A stretch of 64,000 nt of DNA, taken from IMG/VR virus record IMGVR_UViG_3300025816_000008, positions 25,976 through 89,975 of that record. One strand, 5' to 3'. The notes under the pieces were generated by a model. It did not search any database and was not told the origin of the DNA. It worked only from the letters and a program-made list of their open reading frames with translations. The stretch comes from a virus. Below are positions 8,013 to 61,283 of the stretch, piece by piece (position 1 is the first letter of the stretch; every line of letters begins with the position of its first letter). The translations under genes were made by a program, and so were the position numbers.

Positions 8013-8024
8013 AGGACGAAAGTA

Positions 8025-9641: not shown

Positions 9642-9672
9642 CTAAACCTTAATATATTATCCATTCTAAGTA

Positions 9673-9680
9673 TATAAATA
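9673..9680 (+). promoter_or_regulatory. Late promoter TATAAATA
   Basis: Exact match to the T4 late promoter element read by gp55-bearing RNA polymerase. It lies in the gap before the next fibre gene, about 29 bases ahead of its start. Confidence 0.85.
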
Positions 9681-9708
9681 GTAGAAAATACTATTAAGGA
9701 ATGTATGA

Positions 9709-17492: not shown

Positions 17493-17495
17493 ATA
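17488..17495 (+). promoter_or_regulatory. Late promoter TATAAATA overlapping a stop codon
   Basis: Exact late-promoter element that includes the stop codon of the upstream gene. The next gene begins 31 bases further on. Confidence 0.8.
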
Positions 17496-17525
17496 GAGTT
17501 AACTAAGTAAAATAGGATTTAAAGT

Positions 17526-18107
17526 ATGTCAACTAGAGGTAGGTTATTAGCTAATTTAACACTGCATGGATCATTAATTCCAGATGCAGATTCTGCATAT
17601 GATTTAGGATCGCCTTCAAAAAAATTTAGATCTCTTTACTTAAGTCCTAATACTTTACACTTAGGTGATGCAAGTTTAAGTTCGGATGGTACTGGTATCA
17701 TTATTCCTGCTGGGTCAAAAGTTGGCGATGATTCTGTTATTGTTGGCAACGACTTAACAAATAAAGTTAAAGGAGATACTCCATATAATATCACTTTGAA
17801 TCAATCAGGAGACTTAAAACTTTTAACCGGAACCCAAAGATGGTATTCGCCATTTAACGCACAAATCAGTGGTATTACATCTAGATTAGGTACAGCACCT
17901 ACAGGTTCATCTGTAGGAATCAGAGTTAATATAAATGATTCAGCTGAAACAACTTGGACTTTTGCAGCTGGATCGGCAACTGCGTCAATTGCTGATCAAA
18001 CAATAAATTTAAGTACTGGTGATTATCTTACAGTCGATATTACAAGTATTGGTAGTGGAACCGCCGGGGCGGATTTATATACACAATTTGTCTATAAACA
18101 AACATAA
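17526..18107 (+). CDS. Short fibre-like structural protein
   Basis: 193 residues. The N-terminal half carries the motif DLGSPSKKFRSLYLSPNTLHLGD, closely matching the DLGSSTAAWRDLYLSGSTIHLGG element inside the giant fibre, so the two share a shaft module. The C-terminal half is a predicted beta-sandwich (YSPFNAQISGITSRLG, TTWTFAAGSATASI). It follows its own late promoter. A small accessory fibre or an attachment adaptor is likely. Confidence 0.55.
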   Translation: MSTRGRLLANLTLHGSLIPDADSAYDLGSPSKKFRSLYLSPNTLHLGDASLSSDGTGIIIPAGSKVGDDSVIVGNDLTNKVKGDTPYNITLNQSGDLKLLTGTQRWYSPFNAQISGITSRLGTAPTGSSVGIRVNINDSAETTWTFAAGSATASIADQTINLSTGDYLTVDITSIGSGTAGADLYTQFVYKQT

Positions 18108-18112
18108 ACATT

Positions 18113-18120
18113 TATAAATA
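18113..18120 (+). promoter_or_regulatory. Late promoter TATAAATA
   Basis: Exact late element between two short structural genes, 17 bases before the ATG at 18138. An ACGGAG ribosome site lies between them. Confidence 0.8.
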
Positions 18121-18137
18121 GAATAAACGGAGTTAAA

Positions 18138-18365
18138 ATGCAATTTACAAAAACATATGAAGATTTTGATGATAGTGACAATGCAATAACAATAACTCGC
18201 ACATTTGATGCGGTTCTTAATGGAACAACATTGGAAATTTCAGAAACTGTGGATGGTACAAAAAAACCTTGTCTAACTCAACCTTGGAAAACAAATCCAG
18301 ATGGAAGTAGAAGTGATTGGGTTGATATAAATGAAGCAATTGAATGGTATAAACTTCAAGCATAA
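18138..18365 (+). CDS. Small hypothetical protein in the fibre cluster
   Basis: 75 residues, acidic at the N-terminus, with alternating beta-like strands (ITITRTFDAVLNGTTLEI) and a C-terminal WVDINEAIEWYKLQ helix. I do not recognise a family. Its own late promoter and its position between two virion proteins suggest a structural or assembly role; a fibre chaperone is one untested option. Confidence 0.55.
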   Translation: MQFTKTYEDFDDSDNAITITRTFDAVLNGTTLEISETVDGTKKPCLTQPWKTNPDGSRSDWVDINEAIEWYKLQA

Positions 18366-18379
18366 AGTAGGATAAAGAT

Positions 18380-20242
18380 ATGGCACTAATTAAAAAGGGA
18401 TACCAAGCACATAAATTTGCTGTAGTGGAGAGTCCACATGCAGGAAGTACTATGATCTATCTGTATCAACAACCCCATGATAAAAACACGCTTGCTCCTA
18501 TAATGGCTGAAGAAGCAGTATTACAACAGACCCACAGTTATCCACAAATGGCGTTTGGTGTAACAGGTTGGCATGTGGATGCTTATGGCCTTAGTGGTTT
18601 AAATGTAGTAAATAATAATGAATCTTCAATAAGTACTTCTACTTTCAGGGCTGGTGGAGGTTTTACAATATTCCTTCCAAAAATGACAGCAGGAACTAAT
18701 TATGGCGCAGTCGTAGGTGGGCATAATGACTCTTATTGGTCAAATGTGGACCCTTGCCCATTTATGAGTATGGATGAAACTGTTGAAAATGCTAGAATGC
18801 GTAGAATAGTTGATGGTAGTGATGAATTAGTGGTAATGTTAGGAAATGAGGGCTGGAATTCAAACTATCATTGTAATGTTAGTTGGTATAATAAAGGTTC
18901 TAATTACAATTTAAATGATTCACCACCTTCAAATGATTATTACTTTGTCAATCACAGCAGTAGTTATATTCCGATTCCTTATATGTCAACTGTAAAAGTC
19001 GGAAATTATGTTTCTGGAATATACGGTTATTATCGCTACTCTTATGCATATCAATATGTCCAGATTGGAAGAACCTTGTTTTCTGATCATCATTACGCTA
19101 ATCAAGAAATGATTACAGCATCACGTAGGAATTATTATACTTTACAATATATAGGTAATGCAAGTGATGGAAATCCGCTATACTTATATAATTTAAGCAC
19201 AGATGATCATCAACAATATATTACAAAACATAATGTTGCTTCAAATACTATAACTGACTTGCATACTTTTACTGCTGCACCTGGTGCAACAGGAACAAGT
19301 GCGGGTGGAACAAGAGCAACAACTGCATTTGAGACAATTTCAAAAATGGCAAGTCATGTATTTGATGATCCAGCAAGTTCGGGAAATAAAGCATTTTATG
19401 TACCATATTTTGATACTAGTATGAATTATCATCCTTTTTGTTTTAAATGGAATACTTCATCTGATACTTTTACCAGAGATCAATGTTCAACTATTACTGG
19501 AACTTTAAGTAGTGGAATGTTAAATAATATGGATGGCACTGCGGCTTATAGAGCCAGGCTTAAAGGAATTGCAATAAATGAAACCTTTGTTAATAGCGGA
19601 AATAGGTATTTAACGGTATTTCCTTTACAAGGCCAAAAAGACGTAACTACTAGTGATGCGACTAAAAGAACATTTGTAACTTATGCTGTAAGTGGTTCCG
19701 ACGCTACAGCATTAACATATCATAGTAACGTAATATCATCTACTCAAATATACCAAATTATATGGTTAAATGATACTAGAACTAAATTAGGAACTTTTAG
19801 TGAAAATGCATTTAAAATTTATGCTTGGGATAATACTAATGGATGGGTGCTAACTGCTACAGTTAATGAATCATTTAATGCGGTGGGAAGAGATTCAACA
19901 GATAGAATTTGGGCTGTTGGTGCAGATCAAGATGATGTTCCAGTTAATATTCATTTACTATCTAATGCAACTCCAGTGAGAGTGACAGTAACACCTGCTT
20001 CTAGTAGTTATAACTATTCTGGTTCAGATATAAATTCTACTGTTGGAATTAGTGCATATGATATGGATGGTGCTAGAATGGCAGTAAGTGTTAATCTAAC
20101 TATTCAAGGAAGTACAATGACTTTCAGTGGCGGTGGGGCAACAGCAACGGTAACTACTAGCACATCAGCTGATGTGAACCAAGCAATTGTTATAACTGGA
20201 TCTGGTACAAGTGATATATTAACAAACGTGCAACTGTCATAG
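18380..20242 (+). CDS. Propeller/Ig-like virion protein
   Basis: 620 residues with an upstream AGGATAAAG ribosome site. The body has repeated aromatic-rich strands (SNYHCNVSWYNKG, GIYGYYRYSYAYQYVQIG) and WLNDTRTKLGTF/IYAWDNTNGW blocks resembling propeller blades. The last 110 residues look like a Big/Ig-type beta-sandwich (VRVTVTPASSSYNYSGSD, ATVTTSTSADVNQAIVITG). No catalytic motif is seen. It probably is another surface appendage of the large fibre cluster. Confidence 0.5.
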   Translation: MALIKKGYQAHKFAVVESPHAGSTMIYLYQQPHDKNTLAPIMAEEAVLQQTHSYPQMAFGVTGWHVDAYGLSGLNVVNNNESSISTSTFRAGGGFTIFLPKMTAGTNYGAVVGGHNDSYWSNVDPCPFMSMDETVENARMRRIVDGSDELVVMLGNEGWNSNYHCNVSWYNKGSNYNLNDSPPSNDYYFVNHSSSYIPIPYMSTVKVGNYVSGIYGYYRYSYAYQYVQIGRTLFSDHHYANQEMITASRRNYYTLQYIGNASDGNPLYLYNLSTDDHQQYITKHNVASNTITDLHTFTAAPGATGTSAGGTRATTAFETISKMASHVFDDPASSGNKAFYVPYFDTSMNYHPFCFKWNTSSDTFTRDQCSTITGTLSSGMLNNMDGTAAYRARLKGIAINETFVNSGNRYLTVFPLQGQKDVTTSDATKRTFVTYAVSGSDATALTYHSNVISSTQIYQIIWLNDTRTKLGTFSENAFKIYAWDNTNGWVLTATVNESFNAVGRDSTDRIWAVGADQDDVPVNIHLLSNATPVRVTVTPASSSYNYSGSDINSTVGISAYDMDGARMAVSVNLTIQGSTMTFSGGGATATVTTSTSADVNQAIVITGSGTSDILTNVQLS

Positions 20243-46081: not shown

Positions 46082-48685
46082 TTGAATAATTTTTATACAT
46101 CTATCAATCGCCATAAAGGTGAAATTTTGTATCGTGGTTATACTGCTAATGGTACTCGGATTGAAAAACGTGAAAAGTTCGGTCCAACATTTTTTTTACC
46201 ATCAAAGGATCCATCTAAATACCGATCCCTTGATGGTAATTATTTAAACTCATATCAGTTTGATACAATGTATCAAGGTAAAGAATTTCTAGACACATAC
46301 AAAGATATGGAAGGCGTGAAAGTCTACGGAACTAGGAATTACGTTCATCAATATATTACTGATAACTTTCCAACTGATATAGAATTTAATCAGAAACATA
46401 TTAATATAGTTAATTTTGATATTGAAGTTGCATCAGATGATGGATTTCCTAGTCCGGATGTGGCATTACATCCAGTTATTTCAATAGCTTTAAAATCCAG
46501 TAAGTCATCTATATATCAAGTTTGGGGTTTAGACGAATACGATCCTGCTAAGACTGAACTAGATATGGCTGGCAATCATATCAAATATCATAAATGTAAT
46601 ACTGAAACTGAGTTATTAGTTTCGTTTATAAACTATTGGACTAAAAATTATCCAGACATCGTTACTGGATGGTATATCCGCCAATTTGATATTCCGTATT
46701 TAGTTAATAGAATCTGTAGACTTGCCGGAGAAATACCAGGTGAAGATGGCCAAATAAAATGTAAACCGGCTCGGAGACTTTCTCCGTGGAATAATGTCGG
46801 AACAGGTACATCTCGAGGTCAAAAAAGTGCGAAATATGGTTATGAGTTAGAAGGCATTCAAATTGCTGACTATATTGAATTATTTAAAAAGTTTGGTTAT
46901 TCTTACGGACCTCAAGAGTCTTATAAGCTAGATCATATTGCTTATACCGTACTAGGTGAAAACAAATTATCATATGAAGAGCATGGCAATCTTCACAACT
47001 TATACAAAGCAGACCATCAAAAATTTATTGATTATAATATTAAGGATGTTCAGCTTGTTGACCGCATCGATAGTAAGATGGGTCTTATTAACTTAGTTTT
47101 AACTATGGCCTATAAAGGTGGTGTTAATGTAAGTGATACTTTTGGCACTACGGCTATATGGGAATCAATTATCTATCGCCGCCTTCTTAAAAATGGTGTG
47201 ATACCACCAGTTGAACAGATTTCTCAATGTATGTACGGCTTAGTCGGTAATCCAGACAATCAAACCTATGACGCTAATGGTGCTAAACAAGCTCAGCGTA
47301 CAATTGCAGGTGGTTATGTAAAGTCGCCTCGACCAGGCGCTTATGATTGGGTAGTGTCTTTTGATTTAAATTCACTGTATCCAAATATTATTGTACAATC
47401 TAATATATCGCCTGAGACTATTATTAAAGACAAAACATGGGATCATTTTACTCAAGGTGTTAATCATTATTTAAATAATGATGATATTCAGACCGATGAT
47501 TATTCATTATGTGCTAGTGGCGTGCCATTCAGTAAAAAGAAGCAAGGTATTATTCCAGAGCTTATTGTTGAGTACTATGCAGAACGCAGTGTGATTAAAC
47601 AAAAAATGTTGAAAGTAAAACAAGAATATGAAGAAACAAAAAACAAATCTCTAGAGTCTGAAATCAATCAACTTGAAAATAATCAGATGGCTATTAAAAT
47701 CCTACTTAACTCATTATACGGTGCAATGGCAAATAAGTACTTTAAGTTCTTTGATAATGCTCTTGCAGAGAGCGTTACACTTACCGGTCAACTTTCTATT
47801 AAATGGGCTGAACGGGCTATTAACAATGAAATGAATAAGGTACTTAAAACTAAAGGAAAAGATTATGTTATTGCTATTGACACTGACTCAGTCTATATTA
47901 ATTTTGGTCCTCTTGTTGCTCAACTGGCGCCAGCAGATCCTGTTAAAGCATTGGACAAAATTTGTAAGACACACTTCGAGCCAATGATTGCATCTGCTTA
48001 TGATGAATTATTTCATAAGTTAAATGCGTACACTCCTCGCATGGAAATGGGTAGAGAAGTCATAGCAGATCGTGGTATCTGGACAGCAAAGAAAAGATAT
48101 ATTCTAAATGTGCACAATAATGAAGGTGTGCAATATGCTGAACCGAAACTTAAAATCATGGGTATTGAAGCTATCAAGTCTAGTACTCCTGAAGTCGTCC
48201 GTGATAAATTTAAAGAGATATTTAAGGTTATTATCAAAGGTAATGAATTAAGTACTCGTAAGTTTATAAATGATTTTAAACAAGAATTCAAATCGTTATC
48301 GGCAGAAAAAGTTTCGTTTCCGCGTGGTGTATCTGAACTTGACAAATGGAAAGATCGTCGAACTATCTATAAAAAAGGCACTCCCATACACGTTCGTGGA
48401 GCCTTATTATATAATAATCAAATTAAAGAAAAGTCTCTTGATAAAAAACATGATATGATTCAAAAAGGTGAAAAGATTAAATTTACTTATCTTAAAGTTC
48501 CGAATCCTATTAGGGAAAACGTCATTTCGTTTCCAGATTATTTGCCAGATTCGCTGCATCTAAACAAATATATAGATTATGACAAACAGTTTGAGAAAAC
48601 ATTCATCGAGCCACTTGAACCGATATTAGATGCAGTTGGGTGGTCAGTAAATGAGCAAGCAACATTAGAGGATTTCTTTGGATGA
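46082..48685 (+). CDS. 43: Family B DNA polymerase gp43
   Basis: 867 residues (T4 gp43 is 898). TTG start at 46082 with GGAGGA just upstream; the ATG at 46077 runs into a stop. Exonuclease motifs: FDIEVASDD (Asp113, Glu115), [10 protein letters not shown] (about 201-210) and [12 protein letters not shown] (Asp322). Polymerase motifs: DLNSLYP (428-434), KILLNSLYG (539-547) and DTDS (600-603). It is the replicative polymerase with proofreading, tethered by gp45. Its stop overlaps the PEPCK start. Confidence 0.96.
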
Positions 48686-49914
48686 CAAATATTAATATTA
48701 AAACAAATCCAACAGGCCGAAGCCCTGAAAACAAATATTTCTTTGGAGAAAAAACAAAGTGTTTAGATAAGACTCGACCAAAGTATTATAAAGTTGGAAA
48801 GATGGAAGACTTTCTTCAATTTGCAGATCTGATGATACCTAGGTTAATATCTCAATCGATTTATAAAAAACCACTATATCTTGAAACATGTAATATTAGA
48901 TTTAAAATAAATACTAATGATGAAAGACATGAACAATTTGTTAAAAATATGTTTGATGTATTGCCTAATGGTTTTGATCCTAAAGTTTATCCACATAGCG
49001 CACATGATTCTGATTGGACAATTTGGCATAACACGGAATTGAAGGTTGATGAGCCAAAAATCTATGTAAATCTTGATACTAAAACTATGTTAATTGCTGG
49101 GACAACATTTCTAGGTGAAATCAAAAAAGGTATATTTGGTGTAGTTAGTTTTGAACTGCCGAGATATGATATTTTACCAATGCATTGTAGTGCTTTTACA
49201 TATAATGATACGACTAACTTAATGTTTGGATTAAGCGGTACCGGTAAAACTACCCTTAGTAGCGACCCAGATTATAGATTAATTAGTGATGACGAAGTAT
49301 CTTGGAATCACGATGGAATTGAAATGATCGAAACAGGCTGTTATGCAAAAAGCGAAGGGTTAACACCAGAGACACATAAAACTATATTTGATGCAGTAGA
49401 GAAAGCAAGAAATAGTGACTGTTTAGTTGTAGAAAATCCAGGTGTACCAAACGCAAGATTAAGTTATCCTATCACTTGTGTTGAAAACGCGTATCATGAA
49501 CCCCAACAATTTAATCATCCAACTAATATCTTTTTTCTTACTATGGATGCAAAAGGCGTGTTTCCTCCGGTATCTAAAATTTCTGGTGAGACTGTACGAC
49601 GTTTCTTTGAAACTGGATACACGAGCCAAATGCCTGGAACTGAACAGGGAGCAACAGAAATCAAGCCACTTTTTAGTCCTTGTTATGGTTCTCCCTTTAT
49701 GCCAAGACCAATACATGTTTATAGTGATTTACTAATGCAAAAAATTCAGTCTAATGATTGTAACGTATATCTTATTAATACTGGTATGGATAAAGCTGGT
49801 CATAGATACTCATTAGACTTTACTAGAAATTGTGTCAAAGAAGCAATTAACCATGGCACCCGTGACGATAGTAAAAACGTGTTAAATATCTTAGAAAGCT
49901 TAATAAATGAATAA
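48682..49914 (+). CDS. pckA: ATP-type phosphoenolpyruvate carboxykinase
   Basis: 410 residues against about 530 in bacteria; the N-terminus and some loops are shorter. Active-site elements are kept: TGRSP (Arg13), KKG (Lys148/149), MHCS (His168), P-loop GLSGTGKTT (183-191), DDE (203-205), Arg259 in ARLSYP and RYSLDFTR (375-382). The E. coli Tyr207 position appears as Phe. The enzyme converts oxaloacetate plus ATP to PEP and CO2, the entry to gluconeogenesis. It starts inside the polymerase stop (ATGA) and overlaps metK by 8 bases, so it is expressed with replication genes. Confidence 0.9.
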
Positions 49915-51001
49915 ATATATCTTTACAAGTGAATCAGTAAGTGATGGCCACCCCGATAAGGTTGCTGATCAAATAAGCGATGCACTGGTCGATGCTGGAT
50001 TATATAAAGGTGACGAAACTACAAGGGTAGCTATTGAAACTCTAGTGACAACAAACAGTGTGACTATTGCTGGTGAAGTAAAGAATTATAATGTAGGCTT
50101 TTTAGAAAGAGCTGATATTGTTCGTGATGTTATAAAACAAATAGGTTATGAACAAGAAGGCTTTCATCATAAAAACGTAATTATAAGTGATATGATACAT
50201 GAGCAAAGTGATGATATTGCACTAGGAACAGATGATTTCGGCGCAGGCGATCAAGGCATTATGTTTGGATATGCTTGTAATCACACAAAAAGTATGATGC
50301 CAGCACCTATACATTATAGTCATGCGGTGTTAAAGAACTTAAAAACAAAACGTGGAGACATTTTAGGTCCTGATGCTAAGTCTCAAATTAGTGTAGAGTA
50401 TGATGGCGCAAGGCGTGACGGAGTAATTAAGCGTATTGCACAAATTGTTATTAGTACACAACATACAGAAGGTAACGTAGAAGAAGCAAGAAACCTCTGT
50501 AGACTTGCTGCAACGGAAGAACTAGGAGATTTAGTAGATGAAAATACAGTATGGCATCTTAATCCTACAGGTAACTTTGTTATTGGTGGGCCTGATGGTG
50601 ATGCCGGTGTTACAGGACGTAAAATTATTGTTGATACCTATGGCGGTTTTGCTCCTCACGGCGGAGGTGCTTTCAGCGGTAAAGATCCAACAAAGGTTGA
50701 TCGTAGTGCAGCATATATGGCCCGTTGGATTGCTAAGAACGTAGTAGCAGACGAAATGGCAGACTGGTGTAACATACAATTAAGCTATGCTATTGGCGTT
50801 AAAGAACCTACAAGCATTTACATTGACTCGAACGGACACAATAGATCAATTGCTAGTTTCATTCAAAAAGAAATTGATTTAACACCCAAAGGAATTATTG
50901 ATAGATTTGATTTGTTTAATTTTTATGAATACAGTAAGAACTGTACATACGGGCACTTTGGTGACAAAGAAGTGCCATGGGAGAGGTTGGGTTGGAAATG
51001 A
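49907..51001 (+). CDS. metK: S-adenosylmethionine synthetase
   Basis: 364 residues, near full length (bacterial enzymes are about 385). Key motifs: GHPDKVADQISDA (His15, Asp17), GAGDQGIMFGYA (112-123), GGPDGDAGVTGRKIIVDTYGG and GGGAFSGKDPTKVDRSAAY (252-270). It makes SAM from methionine and ATP. In a phage it could support methylation or SAM-derived modification of DNA or polyamine synthesis. It lies in the PEPCK operon and overlaps the next gene (ATGA). Confidence 0.95.
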   Translation: MNKYIFTSESVSDGHPDKVADQISDALVDAGLYKGDETTRVAIETLVTTNSVTIAGEVKNYNVGFLERADIVRDVIKQIGYEQEGFHHKNVIISDMIHEQSDDIALGTDDFGAGDQGIMFGYACNHTKSMMPAPIHYSHAVLKNLKTKRGDILGPDAKSQISVEYDGARRDGVIKRIAQIVISTQHTEGNVEEARNLCRLAATEELGDLVDENTVWHLNPTGNFVIGGPDGDAGVTGRKIIVDTYGGFAPHGGGAFSGKDPTKVDRSAAYMARWIAKNVVADEMADWCNIQLSYAIGVKEPTSIYIDSNGHNRSIASFIQKEIDLTPKGIIDRFDLFNFYEYSKNCTYGHFGDKEVPWERLGWK

Positions 51002-51714
51002 TTCATTATATTTTTGATGTTGACGGTACACTTACTCCAAGCAGAGGTAAAATGGATGAGGAGTTTTCAAAGTTTTTCTTTGATTTTTGTACTTTAAATA
51101 AAGTGTATTTAGTAACAGGTAGTGATATTCAAAAAACACGAGAGCAAGTTGGAGAAGTTATTTGGGGAATGACTAAGCGTAACTATCAATGTTCTGGTAA
51201 TGATGTATGGGAACGTGGTAAGAATGTTCGTACTTCTACTTTAAAGTTACCGGATGAAATGTGGGGCTATTTAAATAAGGCAATCACTGATAGTTCATTT
51301 CCAGTTCAAAATGGACAACACATTGAAGAACGTCCGGGTCTATATAACTTGTCTATTCCAGGAAGAAATATAGGCAATCGTACTCGAATTCAATATGTAG
51401 CATATGACAATTATACTAACGAAAGAAATAATATTGCTGCTAAGTTACGAGAGCAATTTCCATTGTTTGAATTTAAAGTTGCTGGTGAAACCGGTATAGA
51501 TATTACTGCTAAAGGAAATAATAAATCACAAATTCTTGATGATTTTGATTCTTCAGATGTTATCTATTTCTTTGGAGATAAGTGTGATAAAGGTGGAAAT
51601 GATCATGAACTTGCATTAGCTGTACATGATCGTGGAGGAGAAAATAGTACATATCAAGTAAATAGTTGGGAAGACACATTTTCTTATTTACAAGCTGTTA
51701 AAAATGTGGTATAA
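50998..51714 (+). CDS. Phosphomannomutase-like HAD enzyme
   Basis: 238 residues from ATG 50998. HAD motif I is IFDVDGTLT (Asp7, Asp9); ERPGLYNLSIPGRN, a lysine-containing ITAKGNNK and FFGDKCDKGGNDHE (about 198-211) match the eukaryote-type phosphomannomutase branch. The expected reaction is mannose-6-phosphate to mannose-1-phosphate; a sugar-phosphate phosphatase is the alternative. The 3' end contains a sigma70-like promoter for the MazG-like gene. Confidence 0.8.
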   Translation: MIHYIFDVDGTLTPSRGKMDEEFSKFFFDFCTLNKVYLVTGSDIQKTREQVGEVIWGMTKRNYQCSGNDVWERGKNVRTSTLKLPDEMWGYLNKAITDSSFPVQNGQHIEERPGLYNLSIPGRNIGNRTRIQYVAYDNYTNERNNIAAKLREQFPLFEFKVAGETGIDITAKGNNKSQILDDFDSSDVIYFFGDKCDKGGNDHELALAVHDRGGENSTYQVNSWEDTFSYLQAVKNVV

Positions 51715-51715: not shown

Positions 51716-51740
51716 TACATATATAATGAAGGAGAATATA

Positions 51741-52154
51741 ATGAGCGATAACTGGGTTGACGACATTGAAGGTATGCACCATAAATTTGGTGTAGACGAA
51801 TGGTTTGAAAAAAATAAACACGATAAAGAACTCATGAAAAAATTTATTCAATTTCGTATGTTAATGATTTATGAAGAACTCGGCGAAACGATGTCAGCCA
51901 TAAATAATTCGGATAGCGAAGAAATTGTTGATGGTCTTATTGATTTGTGCGTATTTGCTATAGGCACATTAGATATATTTAAGGTTGATGCTAATGCAGC
52001 ATGGAATAAAGTCTTAAAAGCTAATATGGAAAAAGAGCCAGGAGTAAAACCAGGTCGACCAAATAGATTTGGTTTGCCAGATCTTCTTAAACCACACGGT
52101 TGGACACCACCAAATCATAGAGGTAATCATGGAAGTCTCCGCGACGTTCTTTAA
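51741..52154 (+). CDS. MazG-like nucleotide pyrophosphohydrolase
   Basis: 137 residues from ATG 51741, preceded by AAGGAGA. The all-alpha NTP-PPase pattern is visible in FRMLMIYEELGETMSAI (EExxE-type) and EEIVDGLIDLCVFAIGTL (ExxD-type). Such enzymes hydrolyse (d)NTPs or alarmones; phage versions may adjust nucleotide pools or ppGpp. The C-terminus carries a Pro/Gly-rich tail. It overlaps the primase-like gene by 26 bases. Confidence 0.75.
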   Translation: MSDNWVDDIEGMHHKFGVDEWFEKNKHDKELMKKFIQFRMLMIYEELGETMSAINNSDSEEIVDGLIDLCVFAIGTLDIFKVDANAAWNKVLKANMEKEPGVKPGRPNRFGLPDLLKPHGWTPPNHRGNHGSLRDVL

Positions 52155-53471: not shown

Positions 53472-53843
53472 ATGAAAGATAAGTATTCAATTAGATTTCT
53501 GCAAAAGTGTGCAGAAGTACAAATCAAAAAAAGTAATGACTATCAAAATCCTAACTCTAGAGTAAAGCAGGCCGATTACTATCCTCGCGGCTGTGCTACT
53601 ATTCTTGATACAATGGCTGCGAAAGTCCTTCGTATGCAATCTGTTCTTGAAGCAATGGAAATGGATCCAACTTATCAACCGAACTTTGAGTCACTCGAAG
53701 ACTCTTGTGTTGATATTACTAATTATGCATCATTCTTTGCTGCTTATATGAATGGCGCCATTGATGGCCAGACAGGCGATCGTGATTTTCTAAATCGTCC
53801 TATAGCACCCAAAGGAAAACCAAATGAGATCGTTCAGTCTTAA
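53472..53843 (+). CDS. DUF1599/nucleotide-modification-associated-like protein
   Basis: 123 residues. EVQIKKSNDYQNPNSRVKQADYYPRGC, then LDTMAAKVLRMQSVLEAM and SLEDSCVDITNYASFFAAYMNG follow the pattern of DUF1599 (Nmad1), an all-alpha family found beside phage base-modification enzymes. The role of that family is not settled. Its place at the head of the 53.5-60.2 kb cluster fits such an association. The stop overlaps the following gene by 20 bases. Confidence 0.55.
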   Translation: MKDKYSIRFLQKCAEVQIKKSNDYQNPNSRVKQADYYPRGCATILDTMAAKVLRMQSVLEAMEMDPTYQPNFESLEDSCVDITNYASFFAAYMNGAIDGQTGDRDFLNRPIAPKGKPNEIVQS

Positions 53844-54303
53844 AGATATAAATTTGATAGAACTCTTGGCCAAAGCAAAGGCTGAGAGTCAACTTATCTT
53901 TGATAAAGAGTCTACTCGTAAAGGTAGAACTCTTGATGATATTACTGTTACCAATATGTACGGTTTAGCAGCTGAACAGTTTCTTATTGAAAAATGTAAT
54001 TTCACTGATAATCCTTTACCATATCAGGATGTAATATCTCCAGAAGGTATTGATGTTGAAGTAAAAGTAACAAAAGTTTTTAATTATATTCCTAATGTAT
54101 TATATCGTTTAAAAGAAAAGCGTAAAAAGTATCCTAGTTTATATCAGCCTGATTGGGTTTTTATATATTTAAATGATAAAAAAACTCGTGATTATGTTTT
54201 TGCTGGTACATATAAATGGAATGGCAAAACATATGTTACTAAAGATTGGTCTTTAGAAATTGATAGAGAATTTCTTGCTAACTATGAAGGAGTAAACAAT
54301 TGA
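53824..54303 (+). CDS. Possible PD-(D/E)XK nuclease-fold protein
   Basis: 159 residues. YGLAAEQFLIEKC (Glu51) followed by GIDVEVKVTK (Asp77, Glu79, Lys81) has the spacing of PD-(D/E)XK nuclease cores. The C-terminal half is beta-rich and basic (RLKEKRKKYPSLYQPDWVFIYL). If active it could be a phage endonuclease acting on host or unmodified DNA; a non-catalytic relative is equally possible. It ends in a TTGA overlap with the cupin gene. Confidence 0.5.
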   Translation: MRSFSLKDINLIELLAKAKAESQLIFDKESTRKGRTLDDITVTNMYGLAAEQFLIEKCNFTDNPLPYQDVISPEGIDVEVKVTKVFNYIPNVLYRLKEKRKKYPSLYQPDWVFIYLNDKKTRDYVFAGTYKWNGKTYVTKDWSLEIDREFLANYEGVNN

Positions 54304-54659
54304 AAGCTGGTAAAGTCTGGGGAATGACTGAACTCATTGAAGCCAATGGTACTTTAGAATTTCATCGTATTGAAATGGAAGCTACGGGAGTATGCTCAAA
54401 ACATCTTCATGAATATAAATGGAATGGCTTTTATATCGAGTCAGGAATAATGCTCATCCGTGTATGGCAAAAAGATTACGATTTAATTGATGAAACTATT
54501 TTACAAGCAGGTGAATATACTAAAGTAAAACCAGGAGTTTATCATCAATTTGAATGTATTGAACCCGGTGTGGCCTTTGAGTTATATTGGGCTGAGTTTA
54601 ACCATAATGATATTATAAGAGAAACTGTAGGGAGATCGGACAATGAGAGAATTTATTAA
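54300..54659 (+). CDS. Cupin-fold protein
   Basis: 119 residues. TTG start at 54300, overlapping the previous TGA, with AAGGAG 7 bases upstream. Cupin motif 1 is SKHLHEYKWNGFYIESG (His35, His37) and motif 2 is KPGVYHQFE (His82), so a metal site is plausible. Such single-domain cupins often act in sugar or small-molecule metabolism. Neighbouring cytidylyltransferase and sugar-dehydrogenase genes suggest a sugar-related step. Confidence 0.7.
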   Translation: MKAGKVWGMTELIEANGTLEFHRIEMEATGVCSKHLHEYKWNGFYIESGIMLIRVWQKDYDLIDETILQAGEYTKVKPGVYHQFECIEPGVAFELYWAEFNHNDIIRETVGRSDNERIY

Positions 54660-54948
54660 TGATGCTTGGAACAGTGTCATGGATGCAGATATTAATCCTT
54701 TAAGAAATATACCAAATCTTCAAGTTAGACATTTAATTATGCAAATACTTGCTTGGATGTGGGTATCTGTATGCTCTATGTACATAGGAAGCATTATGTT
54801 TTGGGGCGTTAACGCAATCGTTCATACATTGTTATTAGCAGCAATTGTGATTACAGTTGGTACATTTGATACCGCAAAGCGCAATCCTAAACTTTTCGAT
54901 AGAATTGATGGATATAATGGTCGTAGAAATAATGGAGAACACGACTAA
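54643..54948 (+). CDS. Small inner-membrane protein
   Basis: 101 residues with two predicted membrane helices: LIMQILAWMWVSVCSMYIGS (about 31-50) and a second starting near WGVNAIVHTLLLAAIVITVG (about 54-73). The C-terminal tail is polar and basic (NPKLFDRIDGYNGRRNN). Function unknown. It overlaps the cupin gene by 17 bases and the next gene by one (TAATG), so it is embedded in the sugar-gene run. Confidence 0.7.
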   Translation: MREFINDAWNSVMDADINPLRNIPNLQVRHLIMQILAWMWVSVCSMYIGSIMFWGVNAIVHTLLLAAIVITVGTFDTAKRNPKLFDRIDGYNGRRNNGEHD

Positions 54949-55355
54949 TGAAAGTTGGATTTACTTGTAGTACTTTTGATTTACTTCATGCTGGACATGT
55001 ATCTATGCTCAGAGAAGCAAAGTCACAATGTGACTATTTGATCTGCGGTCTGCAAGTAAATCCTAATATTGATCGTAAGGAAAAGAATTCTCCGATACAA
55101 AATATTGTGGAAAGACAAGTACAGCTTTCTGCAATAAAATATGTTGATGAGATCATTATTTATTGTACAGAAGCCGATTTACTTGATATAATAAACATGT
55201 ATCCAATTAATGTTAGGATACTTGGTGAAGAGTATAGAAGCAAGGATTTTACTGGTAAAGATGAATGTCGCAACCGTGGAATTGATTTATACTTTAACAA
55301 ACGTGATCATCGCTTTTCAACAAGCGATCTAAGAAAGAGAGTATGTGAGCAATGA
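54948..55355 (+). CDS. Cytidylyltransferase-like nucleotidyltransferase
   Basis: 135 residues, the length of TagD-type glycerol-3-phosphate cytidylyltransferases. The nucleotide-binding motif is STFDLLHAGHVSML (HAGH 15-18) and the C-terminal RFSTSDLRKR matches the ISTTxI-type motif. It should join a phosphorylated alcohol or sugar to CMP or AMP. Glycerol-3-phosphate and heptose-1-phosphate are both possible substrates. It overlaps the TS-like gene (ATGA). Confidence 0.82.
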   Translation: MKVGFTCSTFDLLHAGHVSMLREAKSQCDYLICGLQVNPNIDRKEKNSPIQNIVERQVQLSAIKYVDEIIIYCTEADLLDIINMYPINVRILGEEYRSKDFTGKDECRNRGIDLYFNKRDHRFSTSDLRKRVCEQ

Positions 55356-56041
55356 AAATGAATTCTGTAAAAGATGTTCGTCAATTCTTTGTTGATGAAT
55401 TAAATGATGAAGCATTCACTATTGATAAAACCGGAGCACGAACTATTGAGATGATCGGCGCATCATTTATTGCTGATGAACCATCTATATTCGGTAAACC
55501 GTCTCTTTCATATATTCAAAAAGAATTAGATTGGTATGATAACCAGTCGACTAATATCTTTGATATTAATAAAGAGTCTGGTGAAGATGCGCCTGCGGCT
55601 TGGAAATATGCTGCTAATACGCATGGTGAAATTAATTCAAACTATGGTCATCTGATTTATGCTAATAAATATTTTGATCAATATCAAAATGCATTGTCTG
55701 AACTAGACAAAAATCCCGATGGTAGGCGTGCTTCTATGATCTATAATCGGCCTTCTATTTGGGTGGAGTTTGACGAAAATGGAAAATCTGATTTCATTTG
55801 TACTAACGCTGTCACTTACTATATTCGTGATAATTTACTTCATTGTGTAGTCCAAATGCGGTCTAATGATGTAGTATTTGGCTATAAGAATGATTATGCT
55901 TGGCAACGACATGTACAAAATAAACTAGTAGAAGATTTAAATAATATCTATAGAGTTAAAGATCCGGTTAGTGCTGGTATGATGATCTGGCAGGTACAAA
56001 ATCTTCACGTATATGAAAGGCATTTTAATCTTGTCACATAA
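55352..56041 (+). CDS. Thymidylate-synthase-family enzyme, probable pyrimidine hydroxymethylase
   Basis: 229 residues. The catalytic Cys150 (DFICTNAV), phosphate-binding Arg170 (QMRSNDVVFG) and the LHVY element (His219, Tyr221) are present. Aligning FGYKNDYAW to the E. coli LGLPFNIASY block places Asp181 where Asn177 binds dUMP; Asn-to-Asp at this site is known to favour dCMP, as in dCMP hydroxymethylases. A ThyX gene at 63663 can supply dTMP, so this paralogue probably makes a hydroxymethylated nucleotide. A degenerate TS is the alternative. Confidence 0.75.
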   Translation: MKMNSVKDVRQFFVDELNDEAFTIDKTGARTIEMIGASFIADEPSIFGKPSLSYIQKELDWYDNQSTNIFDINKESGEDAPAAWKYAANTHGEINSNYGHLIYANKYFDQYQNALSELDKNPDGRRASMIYNRPSIWVEFDENGKSDFICTNAVTYYIRDNLLHCVVQMRSNDVVFGYKNDYAWQRHVQNKLVEDLNNIYRVKDPVSAGMMIWQVQNLHVYERHFNLVT

Positions 56042-56492
56042 TACTAATCGTCAACACAAATGGGATCTAAGATATTTAGAGCTGGCTAAAACTATTGCTG
56101 GATGGTCTAAGGATCCTTCAAGTCAGATTGGAGCTATTGCTGTAGGTTCAAAAGGACAAGTCTTAGCTCAGGGATATAATGGATTTCCTCGAGGAATGCT
56201 TGATAGTCCTAACTTATATAGTAACCGAGAAGAGAAATATGTCAGAATTGTTCATGCTGAAATGAACATGATTTATAATGCATCTTTTAATGGTGTGTGT
56301 TTAAATAAATCAACTGTTTACGTATCAGGTCTTCCTACTTGTTCTGATTGTGCAAAAGGACTTATTCAAGTAGGAGTTGCTGAACTAGTCATGCCACGAC
56401 AAAAGATTGATGAAAAATGGCATGACTCATGGCAAAGATCTAAGTCATATTACAAAGAAGCTGGTCTAAAATATAGGTGGGTAACAATATGA
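56013..56492 (+). CDS. Deoxycytidylate deaminase
   Basis: 159 residues. Zinc motif HAE (81-83) with LPTCSDC (Cys110, Cys113) and YLELAKTIAGWSKDPSSQIGA are diagnostic. It converts dCMP to dUMP. The ATG at 56013 lies within the TS-like gene; a TTG at 56031 giving a shorter start is also plausible in this genome. It sits between the TS-like and SGNH-like genes, linking it to pyrimidine supply for the cluster. Confidence 0.88.
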   Translation: MKGILILSHNTNRQHKWDLRYLELAKTIAGWSKDPSSQIGAIAVGSKGQVLAQGYNGFPRGMLDSPNLYSNREEKYVRIVHAEMNMIYNASFNGVCLNKSTVYVSGLPTCSDCAKGLIQVGVAELVMPRQKIDEKWHDSWQRSKSYYKEAGLKYRWVTI

Positions 56493-57460
56493 AAGTCATA
56501 ACGAATCCAATTAGCAATATTCCAGTAAATGCTAAGTCACATACTCTTGGTTGGTCACAGTTATGGCGCGATCAGCTTGACGCTTATATAGATAATAAGT
56601 GTACACCTAATGTTAGAAAAGCTAATACTGTTTATATTGATCATGGAGCTAACTTTGGAGGAACGTTAAATCTATTTGGCGGCGCCAATAAAGAAGTTTA
56701 TGATAAGTTGAATATAATTGCATCATGTAAAGATGTGGTCTCACTTGATTGGGACATGCCTGATTATGGAGCTATGTTAAAAAAAAGACTAAGCGCTAAG
56801 ACTACATACGAAGGAATCACTGAAGACTGGTGTGATTTACTATCCAGAAGGTTTAAAAATGTTAAATCACTTAAACAAGAAGAATTGGAATTAAATGATG
56901 CCATTATTGGAGACAGTCATACTTTGTCTTTTAGTGATAGTCGCGATATGGTTTTGCGTCATGACGGCAAGACTCTTTTTGGCTGTCTTAGGACCGGCCT
57001 TGGAAGTCTTACTCGGGGCATTAATACTGATAATTTCAATCGTATTACTTTCTGTTTGGGTTCAATAGATATTCGTCATCATCTACTTCGGCATCCTTTA
57101 GACATCGATTCTTTAATTAATTCTTATTACGAACAAGCTATGAAATATAGCAGTGATTCAACTGATGTTTGGTTTACTGCTCCAGTACCGGTAGAATTTG
57201 AGGGTCGACGCATTCCTAAATCTGGATTCTTTAAAAAAGAACCGTTTTACGGTAGCTGTGAACAGCGTAGAGATGTTACAGATATGTTTATAGCAGCTTT
57301 GTACAAACGAACTAGCAATGTTATACAACCACCAGCTGATTGGTATAACATGGATCCTCAAAAATATGCTGAAACTTATATGGAGCATGGTAGTAGTTTT
57401 CATATAGCTCCACCATTTTATAAAAGAAATAACTGGGGAGCATCAGTTTTTGCCACATAA
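56489..57460 (+). CDS. SGNH-hydrolase-like protein
   Basis: 323 residues from ATG 56489 (ATGA overlap; AGGTGG upstream); a GTG 12 bases earlier is less likely. Block I is IIGDSHTLSF (Ser143), a block-III-like GSIDIRHH lies at 191-198, and a late HGSSFHIAP (about 300-308) could give the catalytic His. The N-terminal 135 residues are not recognised. If an esterase or acyltransferase, it could add or remove an acyl group from a sugar or modified base. Substrate unknown. Confidence 0.55.
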   Translation: MKVITNPISNIPVNAKSHTLGWSQLWRDQLDAYIDNKCTPNVRKANTVYIDHGANFGGTLNLFGGANKEVYDKLNIIASCKDVVSLDWDMPDYGAMLKKRLSAKTTYEGITEDWCDLLSRRFKNVKSLKQEELELNDAIIGDSHTLSFSDSRDMVLRHDGKTLFGCLRTGLGSLTRGINTDNFNRITFCLGSIDIRHHLLRHPLDIDSLINSYYEQAMKYSSDSTDVWFTAPVPVEFEGRRIPKSGFFKKEPFYGSCEQRRDVTDMFIAALYKRTSNVIQPPADWYNMDPQKYAETYMEHGSSFHIAPPFYKRNNWGASVFAT

Positions 57461-58349
57461 TAATCACGTAATTGACTTAATCAATAAAGATTATCCTTTC
57501 CCTTGGAGTAGTCCTGAGGAAACTAAGGATTATTATTTAGAATTAGCAAAGGATTGGGAAGATCCTTATGGCCCTCCTGTAATTAAAGTACATGAGGGCA
57601 TTCGTGTTGTTAGAGACGATTACTTAGTTGGTAGTAAGGTTCGAGGTGGTGACTGTCTTATATCTTCTTTACCAGAAAATATAGACACCGTTGTTTATGT
57701 TCAACCAAGAACTGGTTTAGCCGGAGTAAGTATACTCGATGTAGCAAAAAGACATAATCTAAAAGTTAAACTTTTTATGCCTTCATCAAAAAAAATATCA
57801 CCACATCAGGCTTGTTGCATTGAACGTGGAGCGATAGTAGAATTTCATAGAATTGCTGCTATGCCTAATTTAAATGCCATTGCAAAGAAGTGGTCTGATG
57901 CACGATCTAATTGTTTCTTTGTTCCACTCGGATTAAAGCATGAATTGGTTACAGCTGGCATCGTTAAAGTTGCATCAAAAATTGATCCACCTGATGAGGT
58001 TTATACTGCCACGTCCACGGGCGTGCTCACACGGGGGCTTCAAATTGCTTGGCCAAATGCTAAATTTACATCAGTTTGTGTGTCAAGAAATATGAAAGCC
58101 GGAGAGCTTGGTATTGCTGAGGCAATATCCGAGCCGTTAGCATTTACAGCATCTGAGAAAAAAGATAAGCTTCCGCCATTTCCTAATATAGATACTTATG
58201 ATGGTAAAGCTTGGAAGTATATCCCAAAGAATTCAGATAAAGATATTTTATTTTGGAATGTAGGTGCAGAGCCAATATTGAATCGTTGGGCTATTATTGA
58301 TGAAACAAATTCTTATAGGAAGTGGCCAAAAGATGAGCTGGTTAAATGA
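57450..58349 (+). CDS. PLP-dependent fold-type-II-like enzyme
   Basis: 299 residues. TTG start at 57450 with GGGGAG 9 bases upstream, overlapping the preceding stop. VVRDDYLVGSKVRGGD (Lys63 as candidate Schiff-base lysine), then VYVQPRTGLAGVSILDVAK, VKLFMPSSKK and a late TATSTGVLTRGLQIAW are laid out like the tryptophan-synthase-beta/ACC-deaminase superfamily. Its place just before an aGPT-PPlase-like gene suggests it tailors an amino acid attached to DNA or makes the donor. Function is inferred from fold and context. Confidence 0.6.
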   Translation: MPHNNHVIDLINKDYPFPWSSPEETKDYYLELAKDWEDPYGPPVIKVHEGIRVVRDDYLVGSKVRGGDCLISSLPENIDTVVYVQPRTGLAGVSILDVAKRHNLKVKLFMPSSKKISPHQACCIERGAIVEFHRIAAMPNLNAIAKKWSDARSNCFFVPLGLKHELVTAGIVKVASKIDPPDEVYTATSTGVLTRGLQIAWPNAKFTSVCVSRNMKAGELGIAEAISEPLAFTASEKKDKLPPFPNIDTYDGKAWKYIPKNSDKDILFWNVGAEPILNRWAIIDETNSYRKWPKDELVK

Positions 58350-59352
58350 AGAAGCCCTAGACATTTTTGTCAACTATTATTATCCAAAAGCAAAGTGGCT
58401 TCAAAATAATGTTAATTGGGGTCCATTAGATTATGAAGGTCCAGAGGCAGCAAAAGCCATTGACGATCCTTTAATGCAAAAGATTGACATATACGACTGC
58501 TTTACTCGTAATGCAGCAGGATTTTCTAATGTACTTCAGGATCTTAGATTTGGATCTAAAACTCCAAAATGGAGATGGCAAAATAAAACACGTAGAGAAT
58601 TAAATACTAAAAATGATTCTATTAAATGGGACACTAAAACTTGGATGTATGTATTTTTAAGCCACCGCGTTACTGGTTCCGGCGCTTCATTTGAGAATGA
58701 TCATGGATATAGAAATAATATTATTCAGTTTTGGGGAAAGCATCGTGATATTAAAGACATGTCTGAGGACCTAGTTAGCGCTAAAGCTACTGGCAAACCT
58801 CTTTTTACATCAATCGGAAATCAACCACCTGCTCCAAAAAAGGGAGTATCTAATGTTGATTTTCTTGTTAAAGAGCTTCCAGACGTCATAGATAGATTAG
58901 GTGACTGGATTGTAAAAAGCAAAAGAGGTCATAAAGAAATTGTAGACTTTCTAAATGTTTATAACAAATCTGCCGGACACAGGAAATTTAATTTTCAATA
59001 TGCTGCCTTCTCAATGGATTGTTCTGATTATTTTCCAGAATATGCTGATGTTGATAGCCATACATACTTAGGTAATAACGCTATTCGGTGTATGAAAAAA
59101 CTGTCTGGTGGGTGGAAGCCGGATAGTTTTATGGATTTATTGAGAGAACAAACCGGCGGAAAACCAAAAGATTTAGAAGATGTAATGTGCGACTTTGTCA
59201 GGTTTGGGCAAAATTATGTTCCTAGAGGAAATGGAACCTTCGATCATATACCATCAACGTTAGCAAATAATTCGGGGTGGAATTCTGGCTGGGAACAGCG
59301 GCAGGGTACACCACCTCAAAAAGGTATACAATTAGAGGATTTTATGGTATAA
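58333..59352 (+). CDS. aGPT-PPlase/amino acid:DNA transferase-like protein
   Basis: 339 residues from ATG 58333, overlapping the PLP-like gene by 17 bases. Motifs: VTGSGASFENDHGYRNN (113-129), FQYAAFSMDCSDYFPEYADV (221-240) and LGNNAIRCMKKLSGG (246-260). The last two resemble the 'xFxxYExxxDL ... pGpGAxRgLxxLxG' pattern of HhH-glycosylase-like alpha-glutamyl/putrescinyl-thymine pyrophosphorylases, which place amino acids on 5-hydroxymethyl bases. No kinase partner is visible in the window. I am unsure of the subfamily. Confidence 0.5.
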   Translation: MSWLNEEALDIFVNYYYPKAKWLQNNVNWGPLDYEGPEAAKAIDDPLMQKIDIYDCFTRNAAGFSNVLQDLRFGSKTPKWRWQNKTRRELNTKNDSIKWDTKTWMYVFLSHRVTGSGASFENDHGYRNNIIQFWGKHRDIKDMSEDLVSAKATGKPLFTSIGNQPPAPKKGVSNVDFLVKELPDVIDRLGDWIVKSKRGHKEIVDFLNVYNKSAGHRKFNFQYAAFSMDCSDYFPEYADVDSHTYLGNNAIRCMKKLSGGWKPDSFMDLLREQTGGKPKDLEDVMCDFVRFGQNYVPRGNGTFDHIPSTLANNSGWNSGWEQRQGTPPQKGIQLEDFMV

Positions 59353-60173
59353 TGGCTAAAAAATTAAAAATATCCGTGATCGGTTGTGGTTTTGTAGGCA
59401 CAGCTGTTATTAATGGTTTTGATAAAAAATTATGTGATATTGCACCAATTGACATTAAGTATAATACCACAGTGTCAGATACTGATCCATTTTGTGATGT
59501 ATTTTTTGTGTGTTTACCTACACCAAGCGAGGATGATGGATCAGTTAACGCTGCACTTGTAATTGAAACTGTTAAATGGTTAAAGCTTAATAGAGCTGGA
59601 CACATCGTAATAAAATCAACCGTCACACCTGATATTATAGATAAACTTTCTGGTGATAGAGTAGTTTATAATCCTGAATTTTTAACTGAAAAATCTGCAG
59701 ATGAAGATTTCATTAATTCGGCAATGCATATATTTGGAGGGCATATTAAAGATACAAACAATATTGAAAAAATATATAAAAAATATAGTAAATGTAAACC
59801 TTGCCCATGCCACCATGTGACATTAAAAGAAGCAAGTTTTATTAAATACGGAGTTAATTGTTTTCTTGCCACAAAAGTATTATGGTTTAATCAATTCTAT
59901 AATATAATACAAAAACACGATTGTAATTTTGATGAGATTACTTATGCAATGAGATCAGATCCAAGGATTGGTAACTCTCATACGAGTGTTCCAGGATTTG
60001 ATGGCAAAATGGGTTTTGGTGGAGCTTGTTTTCCAAAAGATACTTCAGCATTTTTAGATTTTGCAATATCATTTTCAGTCCTAAATGAGGTAATACAAGC
60101 AAATAATAAGATTAGATCTGAATATACGAAAGATAAAAGAGAGCTTGAGCAAAATGTCTCTTTTAGTAAATAA
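59352..60173 (+). CDS. Shortened UDP-glucose/GDP-mannose dehydrogenase
   Basis: 273 residues from ATG 59352 (TAATG overlap); the earlier frame start lies inside the preceding gene. NAD-binding GCGFVG (11-16), YNPEFLTEKSA (106-116), EASFIKYGVNCFLATK (160-175) and catalytic Cys226 in GFGGACFPKD are all present. Bacterial enzymes are about 390-440 residues; the C-terminal nucleotide-sugar domain is missing here. It may work with another subunit or a different substrate. It ends just before the uvsX promoter. Confidence 0.85.
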   Translation: MAKKLKISVIGCGFVGTAVINGFDKKLCDIAPIDIKYNTTVSDTDPFCDVFFVCLPTPSEDDGSVNAALVIETVKWLKLNRAGHIVIKSTVTPDIIDKLSGDRVVYNPEFLTEKSADEDFINSAMHIFGGHIKDTNNIEKIYKKYSKCKPCPCHHVTLKEASFIKYGVNCFLATKVLWFNQFYNIIQKHDCNFDEITYAMRSDPRIGNSHTSVPGFDGKMGFGGACFPKDTSAFLDFAISFSVLNEVIQANNKIRSEYTKDKRELEQNVSFSK

Positions 60174-60230: not shown

Positions 60231-61283
60231 ATGTCGATTATGGATAAACTTAAAAAGAATTCAAAGCTTAAGGCCACTGAAGTTCTTTCTGAGTCTAAAT
60301 TTTTTAATGAAAAAGATATGATTTCAACTAGCGTACCAATGGTAAACGTTGCGCTATCTGGATCTATGGATGGTGGAATGACACCTGGACTAACGGTTTT
60401 GGCTGGTCCATCTAAACACTTCAAAACATCGTTTGCGCTTCTTATGGCAAGTGCTTATCTTAAATCTAAAAAGACGCAGGTAATGCTATTTTATGATTCA
60501 GAGTTTGGTTCACCTCAAGCGTACTTTGAGCAATTTGATATTGATACATCACGTGTTCTTCATACTCCAATTACAAATGTAGAAGAGCTTAAATTTGATA
60601 TGATTGCTCAGCTTGAAGGTCTAGAGTCTAAAGATGATGTCATTATTGTTATTGACTCTATTGGTAATCTTGCTTCGAAGAAAGAATTAGATGATGCTCA
60701 GAATGAAAAGTCTGTTGCTGATATGTCGAGAGCTAAAGCACTTAAAGGTTTATTTCGTATGGCAACACCCTATCTTGCTATGAAAAATATCGTAATGCTT
60801 GCAGTTAATCATACATATCAAGAGATTGGTTTATTTCCTAAAGCAGTAGTATCGGGTGGCACTGGGATTTATTATAGTGCTAATAATATTTGGATCCTTG
60901 GCCGCCGCCAAAATAAAAAAGGCACGGAAATTACTGGTTATGACTTTGTTATTAATATCGAGAAATCACGATTTGTAAAAGAAAAGTCTAAGATCCCTAT
61001 CTCAGTTTCATGGGAAGGTGGCGTAGAAGAATATTCTGGTTTACTAGAAGTAGCAATGGCGGGTGGCTATGTTGTTAAGCCGTCTAATGGTTGGTATTCT
61101 TCTGTCGATATGTCCACTGGTGAAGTGTCTGAAAAGAAAGTTCGTGAAGCAGGTACTCTTGAGAAAGAATTCTGGGATCCAATCTTTACTAATACAGATT
61201 TTAAAGACTTTATAAAAAAGCAATTTACTATTGGTTACAAATCTGATATAGATATGGATGAGATCTTAGAAATGGAGGCGTAA
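60231..61283 (+). CDS. uvsX: RecA-like recombinase UvsX
   Basis: 350 residues (T4 UvsX is 391). Walker A GPSKHFKT (59-66), Walker B VIIVIDSIGNL (137-147) and a GLFPKAVVSGGTGIYYSAN region typical of UvsX. It forms filaments on single-stranded DNA and promotes strand exchange, loaded by UvsY. An AAAGGAG site precedes the ATG; the stop abuts the next ATG. Confidence 0.95.
   Translation: MSIMDKLKKNSKLKATEVLSESKFFNEKDMISTSVPMVNVALSGSMDGGMTPGLTVLAGPSKHFKTSFALLMASAYLKSKKTQVMLFYDSEFGSPQAYFEQFDIDTSRVLHTPITNVEELKFDMIAQLEGLESKDDVIIVIDSIGNLASKKELDDAQNEKSVADMSRAKALKGLFRMATPYLAMKNIVMLAVNHTYQEIGLFPKAVVSGGTGIYYSANNIWILGRRQNKKGTEITGYDFVINIEKSRFVKEKSKIPISVSWEGGVEEYSGLLEVAMAGGYVVKPSNGWYSSVDMSTGEVSEKKVREAGTLEKEFWDPIFTNTDFKDFIKKQFTIGYKSDIDMDEILEMEA

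Follow-up and report, generated by a model that had tools for sequence, protein, structure and literature searches.

A run of overlapping genes in a marine T4-like phage raises the question of which DNA base the phage modifies, and by what chemistry. The run occupies positions 53472–60173 of a 64,000-nucleotide stretch of viral DNA (the window), which spans positions 25976–89975 of the 89,975-base IMG/VR record IMGVR_UViG_3300025816_000008; coordinates below are window positions unless stated otherwise. It consists of eleven plus-strand genes, each overlapping its neighbours by 1–29 bases, and the window around it carries T4-type structural, replication and transcription genes. Four of the eleven form a core: a homologue of the T4 deoxycytidine monophosphate (dCMP) 5-hydroxymethylase gp42, an SGNH/GDSL-fold protein, a fold type II pyridoxal phosphate (PLP) enzyme and a protein with the predicted fold of the amino acid:DNA transferases (AADTs). 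We hold with moderate confidence that they constitute a cytosine hypermodification module, in which 5-hydroxymethylcytosine (5hmC) is first built into the DNA and the AADT, PLP and SGNH proteins afterwards tailor it. Further decoration of 5hmC is very probable, and the added group is perhaps derived from an amino acid.

The target base can be read from the hydroxymethylase. The protein encoded at 55352–56041 matches T4 gp42 (1b49/1b5d) in a phmmer search with an E value of 1.9e-68; it has the Cys nucleophile in the motif ICTN and, in GYKNDYAW, an Asp at the position of Asn177 of thymidylate synthase (TS). Both the catalytic Cys and the Asp are found in 72/72 distinct relatives (the Asp in 71 by pattern and in one by eye). 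The homology is strong, and from it we infer dCMP-hydroxymethylase activity. A separate thyX elsewhere in the window means that the gp42-like enzyme need not supply dTMP. Because of the gp42 homology and the retention of the Asp, the sequence evidence indicates that the modified base is cytosine; the modified pyrimidine proposed in the initial annotation of this DNA thus narrows to cytosine.

In the MetaGPA study, TS of the Asp177 type was found mostly on modified-cytosine contigs, with which PRA-PH and dCMP deaminase domains were also associated (PMC8670742). The window carries all three types: besides the TS-Asp protein there is an all-alpha NTP pyrophosphohydrolase (PRA-PH/MazG) at 51726–52154, also on the plus strand (PF01503, E = 5.3e-8), which is a candidate dCTPase, and a dCMP deaminase at 56013–56492 (PF00383, E = 2.4e-15; phrog_174, 3.3e-34). 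The protein at 53472–53843 is a member of DUF1599, or ‘Nucleotide modification associated domain 1’ (phrog_1485, 2.8e-8); it has no direct Pfam match, and the assignment draws on a relative (L059) that exceeds the PF07659 cut-off (E = 3.5e-7). The initial annotation had described a nearly gapless run that included a DUF1599-like protein, a TS-like enzyme with an Asn-to-Asp change and a dCMP deaminase. All of the open reading frames (ORFs) that it named are present, with four more genes in the interval, and these three labels are supported by the relative's PF07659 match, the gp42 homology and the PF00383 match, respectively. The cluster sits between the genes for DNA polymerase (gp43; 46082–48685) and a UvsX-like recombinase (60231–61283). 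This slot is plastic, being occupied by b-gt in T4 and by a candidate arabinose module in RB69 (PMC6024577). It is where the cytosine-modification genes of T4-like phages are located, which counts in favour of a cytosine hypermodification module.

Conservation among relatives defines the core. When IMG/VR was scanned with the AADT-like protein and the PLP enzyme as queries, many relatives were returned; of 118 non-redundant contigs, the 41 with at least 3.5 kb on either side of the block were used for a census. The hydroxymethylase (HMase), SGNH, PLP and AADT-like genes occur together in 41/41 viral contigs, a figure which, since the searches began from two of the four, means that those two bring the others along. 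Five gene orders are seen: HMase-SGNH-PLP-AADT (23 contigs), HMase-AADT-PLP-SGNH (12), HMase-AADT-X-PLP-SGNH (3), HMase-X-SGNH-PLP-AADT (2) and HMase-PLP-SGNH-AADT (1), X being an additional protein described below. Identities in the aligned sets fall as low as ~28% for the AADT-like protein and 27% for the SGNH protein, and the hydroxymethylase goes down to about 40%. That the set is kept despite this reshuffling and divergence argues for a common function of the four genes. Frequent partners are PRA-PH (39/41), dCMP deaminase (37/41) and DUF1599 (30/41). A scan of prokaryote genomes gave matches on contigs of metagenome-assembled genomes only, which are perhaps phage-derived. The module is widespread and is probably a new cytosine hypermodification system; its combination of enzymes has not been described for cytosine.

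The assignment of the 339-residue protein at 58333–59352 comes from its predicted structure. Its start is placed at the ATG at 58333, with a TTG upstream at 58297 as a possible alternative. The AlphaFold2 model is all alpha, with a predicted local distance difference test (pLDDT) score of 83.8. A Foldseek search of BFVD, where protein names are database annotation, places first a protein named ‘Amino acid:DNA transferase domain-containing protein’, itself a relative at 27% identity (E = 1.1e-14, template-modelling (TM) score 0.79). A second AADT-named protein (E = 4.4e-4, TM 0.44) and the SP10 5-hydroxymethyldeoxyuridine (5-hmdU) DNA kinase (E = 3.3e-3, TM 0.49) follow, and further matches include two aGPT-Pplase1 proteins and HMUDK helical-domain proteins, one of them from PhiW-14. 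Against the PDB the model shows a weak likeness to DNA glycosylase-type structures. An apparent A1-A2 hhalign match was discarded as an artefact confined to upstream ORF extensions. Protein X (318–343 residues; L103:8088-9083, L107:8079-9068, L127:8980-10011 and others) lies within the core block of some relatives, either between the AADT-like and PLP genes or ahead of the SGNH gene. Its alignment (A5) matches the AADT-like family weakly by profile (hhalign E = 2.4e-4, probability 43), and no counterpart was found in the 89,975-base record.

The PLP enzyme (57450–58349, 299 residues) is more readily placed. It has an invariant Lys63 in GSKVRGGD, a motif of the GSKxRG type, across the alignment; it matches the PHROG ‘threonine dehydratase’ family phrog_7093 (1.4e-32) and, below the cut-off, Pfam PALP (4e-4). 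Its family also aligns with that of gp52 of Pseudomonas phage M6 (hhalign E = 3.2e-8, probability 95, 218 columns). In M6, gp52 stands between gp51, an AADT (PF18724), and gp53, annotated as a DNA repair photolyase, while HMUDK is gp55. Two relatives are closer than gp52: in Erythrobacter phage R6L (L171:6804-9233) the PLP fold-II domain and an N6/N4 DNA methyltransferase form a single fused protein, and in Microcystis phage Mae-JY30 (L172:5108-6699) the PLP fold-II gene adjoins one for such a methyltransferase. The position of gp52 next to an AADT, together with this fusion and adjacency, indicates that the PLP family recurs near DNA-modifying enzymes. The first proposal from the sequence, a hypermodification cluster in which a PLP enzyme accompanies a protein of the AADT/aGPT-PPlase fold, is thus backed by the predicted fold and by homology to the gp52 that adjoins the AADT of M6.

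The third member of the trio, a 323-residue protein at 56489–57460, had been singled out as an unusual SGNH-like partner, and both its predicted fold and its presence in every census contig bear this out. SGNH esterases dominate the Foldseek matches of its AlphaFold2 model (pLDDT 88.9) in the PDB, with probability about 1.0, a best E value of 1e-3 and a TM score of about 0.4 by query. The protein matches phrog_13881, annotated as of unknown function, at 4.7e-87; its alignment has an invariant GDSH block (G141-D142-S143) and a C-terminal E299...S303-x-H305. Its cultured relatives are encoded in 40 Aeromonas/Stenotrophomonas phage records and three Tenacibaculum records. A dCMP hydroxymethylase is encoded in 40/40 of the Aeromonas/Stenotrophomonas records, as against 934/50,697 phage records overall. 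In Aeromonas phage 44RR2.8t the SGNH domain forms the N-terminal half of ORF233c (L170:5995-8382), a 795-residue hypothetical protein whose C-terminal half has a weak HMUDK_hel likeness (E = 3.6e-3, below the cut-off). In Aeromonas phage phiAS4 the SGNH gene, ORF0027, comes after genes for UDP-galactopyranose mutase (UGM) and a glycosyltransferase (GT)-like protein, the latter assigned by eye. Its association with hydroxymethylase across differing neighbours suggests that the SGNH protein tracks hydroxymethylcytosine and not one type of decoration.

A pathway can be proposed from these assignments. The gp42-like enzyme would convert dCMP to 5-hydroxymethyl-dCMP (hmdCMP), while the PRA-PH- and DUF1599-type pyrophosphohydrolases and dCMP deaminase would shrink the dCTP pool, such that 5hmC is incorporated. 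AADTs attach amino-acid groups on 5-hmdU; because of its predicted AADT fold and its PLP partner, the AADT-fold protein would act on 5hmC in DNA, linking its 5-methylene carbon to an amino-acid-like group. The PLP enzyme may then remodel the attached group or supply its precursor, a role which M6 gp52 is also presumed to play. The SGNH-fold enzyme would contribute a step that the pathway requires, either acyl transfer or ester hydrolysis, at some point in the sequence.

Several observations weigh against this scheme. The 41 contigs come from related phages and do not represent 41 independent events. The protein at 58333–59352 appears to share the AADT/aGPT-PPlase/HMUDK helical fold with kinship at the level of fold only: the comparison with AADTs that had been suggested for it succeeded in BFVD, whereas sequence profiles gave no match to PF18724 (ADDT) or PF18723 (HMUDK_hel) for the protein and its 26 relatives (27 members in all), and it is therefore named AADT-like and not a member of Pfam ADDT. 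Comparison by hhalign of its family with the authentic AADTs of M6, ViI and PhiW-14, using shallow profiles, was not significant, nor was comparison with the 44RR2.8t C-terminal domain; tblastn found no match to the AADT-like protein in cultured phages, and HMMER searches of PDB sequences with the AADT-like, SGNH and PLP proteins gave nothing credible. The SGNH protein is without the canonical GxND Asn, having G-x-I/V-D instead, and without the D-x-x-H spacing; it is a divergent SGNH/GDSL member at most, and its activity is not readable from the conserved blocks. A search for a T4 gp1-like dNMP kinase found none, so that phosphorylation of hmdCMP would require another enzyme.

The activation step presents a further difficulty. 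In the thymidine pathways a DNA kinase activates 5-hmdU ahead of transfer (PMC6449724). Such a kinase for 5-hydroxymethyl bases was looked for here with the PF18723 HMUDK profile, which detects the kinase in M6, ViI and PhiW-14 as a positive control; no match was found in the record itself (90 kb, perhaps incomplete) or in the relatives G001 and G002 (142 and 135 kb). An absent match does not prove absence; activation of 5hmC would involve either an unrecognised kinase or a different route. A P-loop APS-kinase-like gene was considered as the DNA kinase and rejected, being present in just 7/41 contigs and in neither the record nor G001. It is conceivable, if quite doubtful, that the SGNH protein replaces the kinase by acylating 5hmC in DNA on its hydroxymethyl oxygen, the AADT-like protein then displacing the ester and the PLP enzyme reshaping the amino-acid-linked cytosine.

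Among other explanations, the one that survives best is that 5hmC is glycosylated, with nucleotide-sugar genes supplying the donor and the PLP and SGNH proteins tailoring the sugar. The operon does contain an NDP-sugar dehydrogenase (59352–60173, 273 residues; PF00984, 7.7e-17; PF03721, 5.1e-13) and a cytidylyl/adenylyltransferase resembling RfaE/HldE domain II (54948–55355; PF01467, 1.4e-11; TIGR02199, 1.7e-19, below the cut-off). Some relatives have, near the module, an epimerase gene and genes for DAHP_synth_1 (KDO-8-phosphate-synthase-like) and CTP_transf_3 (CMP-sugar-synthetase-like) proteins (L020:3333-4118, L076:5479-6162). The neighbours of the phiAS4 SGNH gene point the same way, and RB69 and Thanatos are T4-like phages with pentose modifications. 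Against this, the dehydrogenase and the nucleotidyltransferase are each found in just 12/41 contigs, compared with 41/41 for the AADT-like, PLP and SGNH genes, and the core in the census is without a glycosyltransferase. Glycosylation is for these reasons an unlikely account. The dehydrogenase, which had been taken for a part of the pathway, is also short: its NAD-binding and central domains cover the first approximately 300 of 413 model positions (TIGR03026 64-300), and the part of the family models corresponding to the C-terminal UDP-binding domain was not matched. Its low frequency and short length leave its place in the pathway unsupported. Owing to their low frequency the sugar genes are not counted as core; they are optional cargo outside it, and those of relatives may have to do with sugars of the surface or with another, second modification.

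A second alternative is that the DNA contains plain 5hmC only, the substrates of the AADT-like, PLP and SGNH proteins being free nucleotides or metabolites of the host. The core genes do sit among pool-management genes, and PLP fold-II and SGNH enzymes have mostly small-molecule substrates. Nevertheless, the AADT/HMUDK_hel superfamily is tied to DNA substrates, as in M6, ViI and PhiW-14, DNA methyltransferases are fusion partners or neighbours of PLP relatives, and the trio co-occurs unvaryingly with a dCMP hydroxymethylase, which together make this rather improbable. Least probable is a thymidine target derived from 5-hmdU, as in M6, ViI and PhiW-14, since, although the known AADT/PLP pathways do work on 5-hmdU (PMC6449724, PMC9599517), the hydroxymethylase is gp42-like with its invariant Asp, thyX is separate and no HMUDK was found in the record or in G001 and G002.

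The remaining genes of the cluster are less informative. The product of 53824–54303, present in 14/41 contigs, has no family match in Pfam or PHROG searches and is possibly nuclease-like, to judge by a D-x-E-x-K motif (DVEVK) read by eye. It is followed by an accessory cupin (54300–54659; PF07883, 9.1e-6, just below the cut-off; 10/41 contigs) and a small hydrophobic protein from the ORF list (54643–54948). Between the polymerase gene and the PRA-PH gene lie an unusual auxiliary gene, that for an ATP-dependent phosphoenolpyruvate carboxykinase directly after the polymerase (48682–49914; PF01293, E = 3.9e-91), which has homologues in relatives L083 and L012, and then, at 49907–51714, MetK, an S-adenosylmethionine synthetase that is complete with its three Pfam domains, after which comes a phosphomannomutase-like HAD protein. 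Outside the window, at ~2000–19900 of the same record (L001), is a mostly minus-strand island of small proteins that by eye are radical-SAM-, desaturase- and oxygenase-like.

If the favoured tailoring of 5hmC by the AADT/PLP/SGNH trio is correct, the known AADT/PLP hypermodification, which is of thymidine, would gain a cytosine version that adds a chemical class of DNA base and draws the SGNH fold into DNA modification, in a form widespread in marine and freshwater T4-like phages. It would also give a testable function to a protein left hypothetical in sequenced Aeromonas phages, among them 44RR2.8t, 25, 31 and phiAS4.

The module resembles several known systems in part. As in the M6 thymidine cluster, an AADT-superfamily gene adjoins a PLP fold-II gene, the PLP genes of the two being homologous, and a gene of the TS family is close by; the module differs in its dCMP-type hydroxymethylase, the constant presence of SGNH, AADT kinship by fold only, and a core without HMUDK or a partner of the gp53 type. 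With the T-even hydroxymethylcytosine pathway (gp42 plus glucosyltransferases) and the arabinosyl-hydroxymethylcytosine of RB69 it shares a gp42 homologue in the polymerase–uvsX slot, whereas here the trio would replace the sugar-transfer step. Phages 44RR2.8t and phiAS4 encode the homologous SGNH domain and a dCMP hydroxymethylase; in contrast to the module, a PLP homologue was looked for in them and none found, and the SGNH domain is joined to the weakly HMUDK_hel-like domain or lies beside the UGM and GT-like genes. The 5hmC carbamoyltransferase module from MetaGPA (PMC8670742) likewise combines TS Asp177, PRA-PH and dCMP deaminase, with a different set of final enzymes, no carbamoyltransferase being recognised in the window cluster. 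Finally, the CmoX/CmoY system, which makes 5-carboxymethylcytosine-glycine (PMC12783734), also joins a cytosine of phage DNA to an amino acid, and does so with a C5-methyltransferase homologue using carboxy-S-adenosylmethionine (Cx-SAM) and an ATP-dependent ligase, whereas the enzymes here are a hydroxymethylase and an AADT-fold protein.

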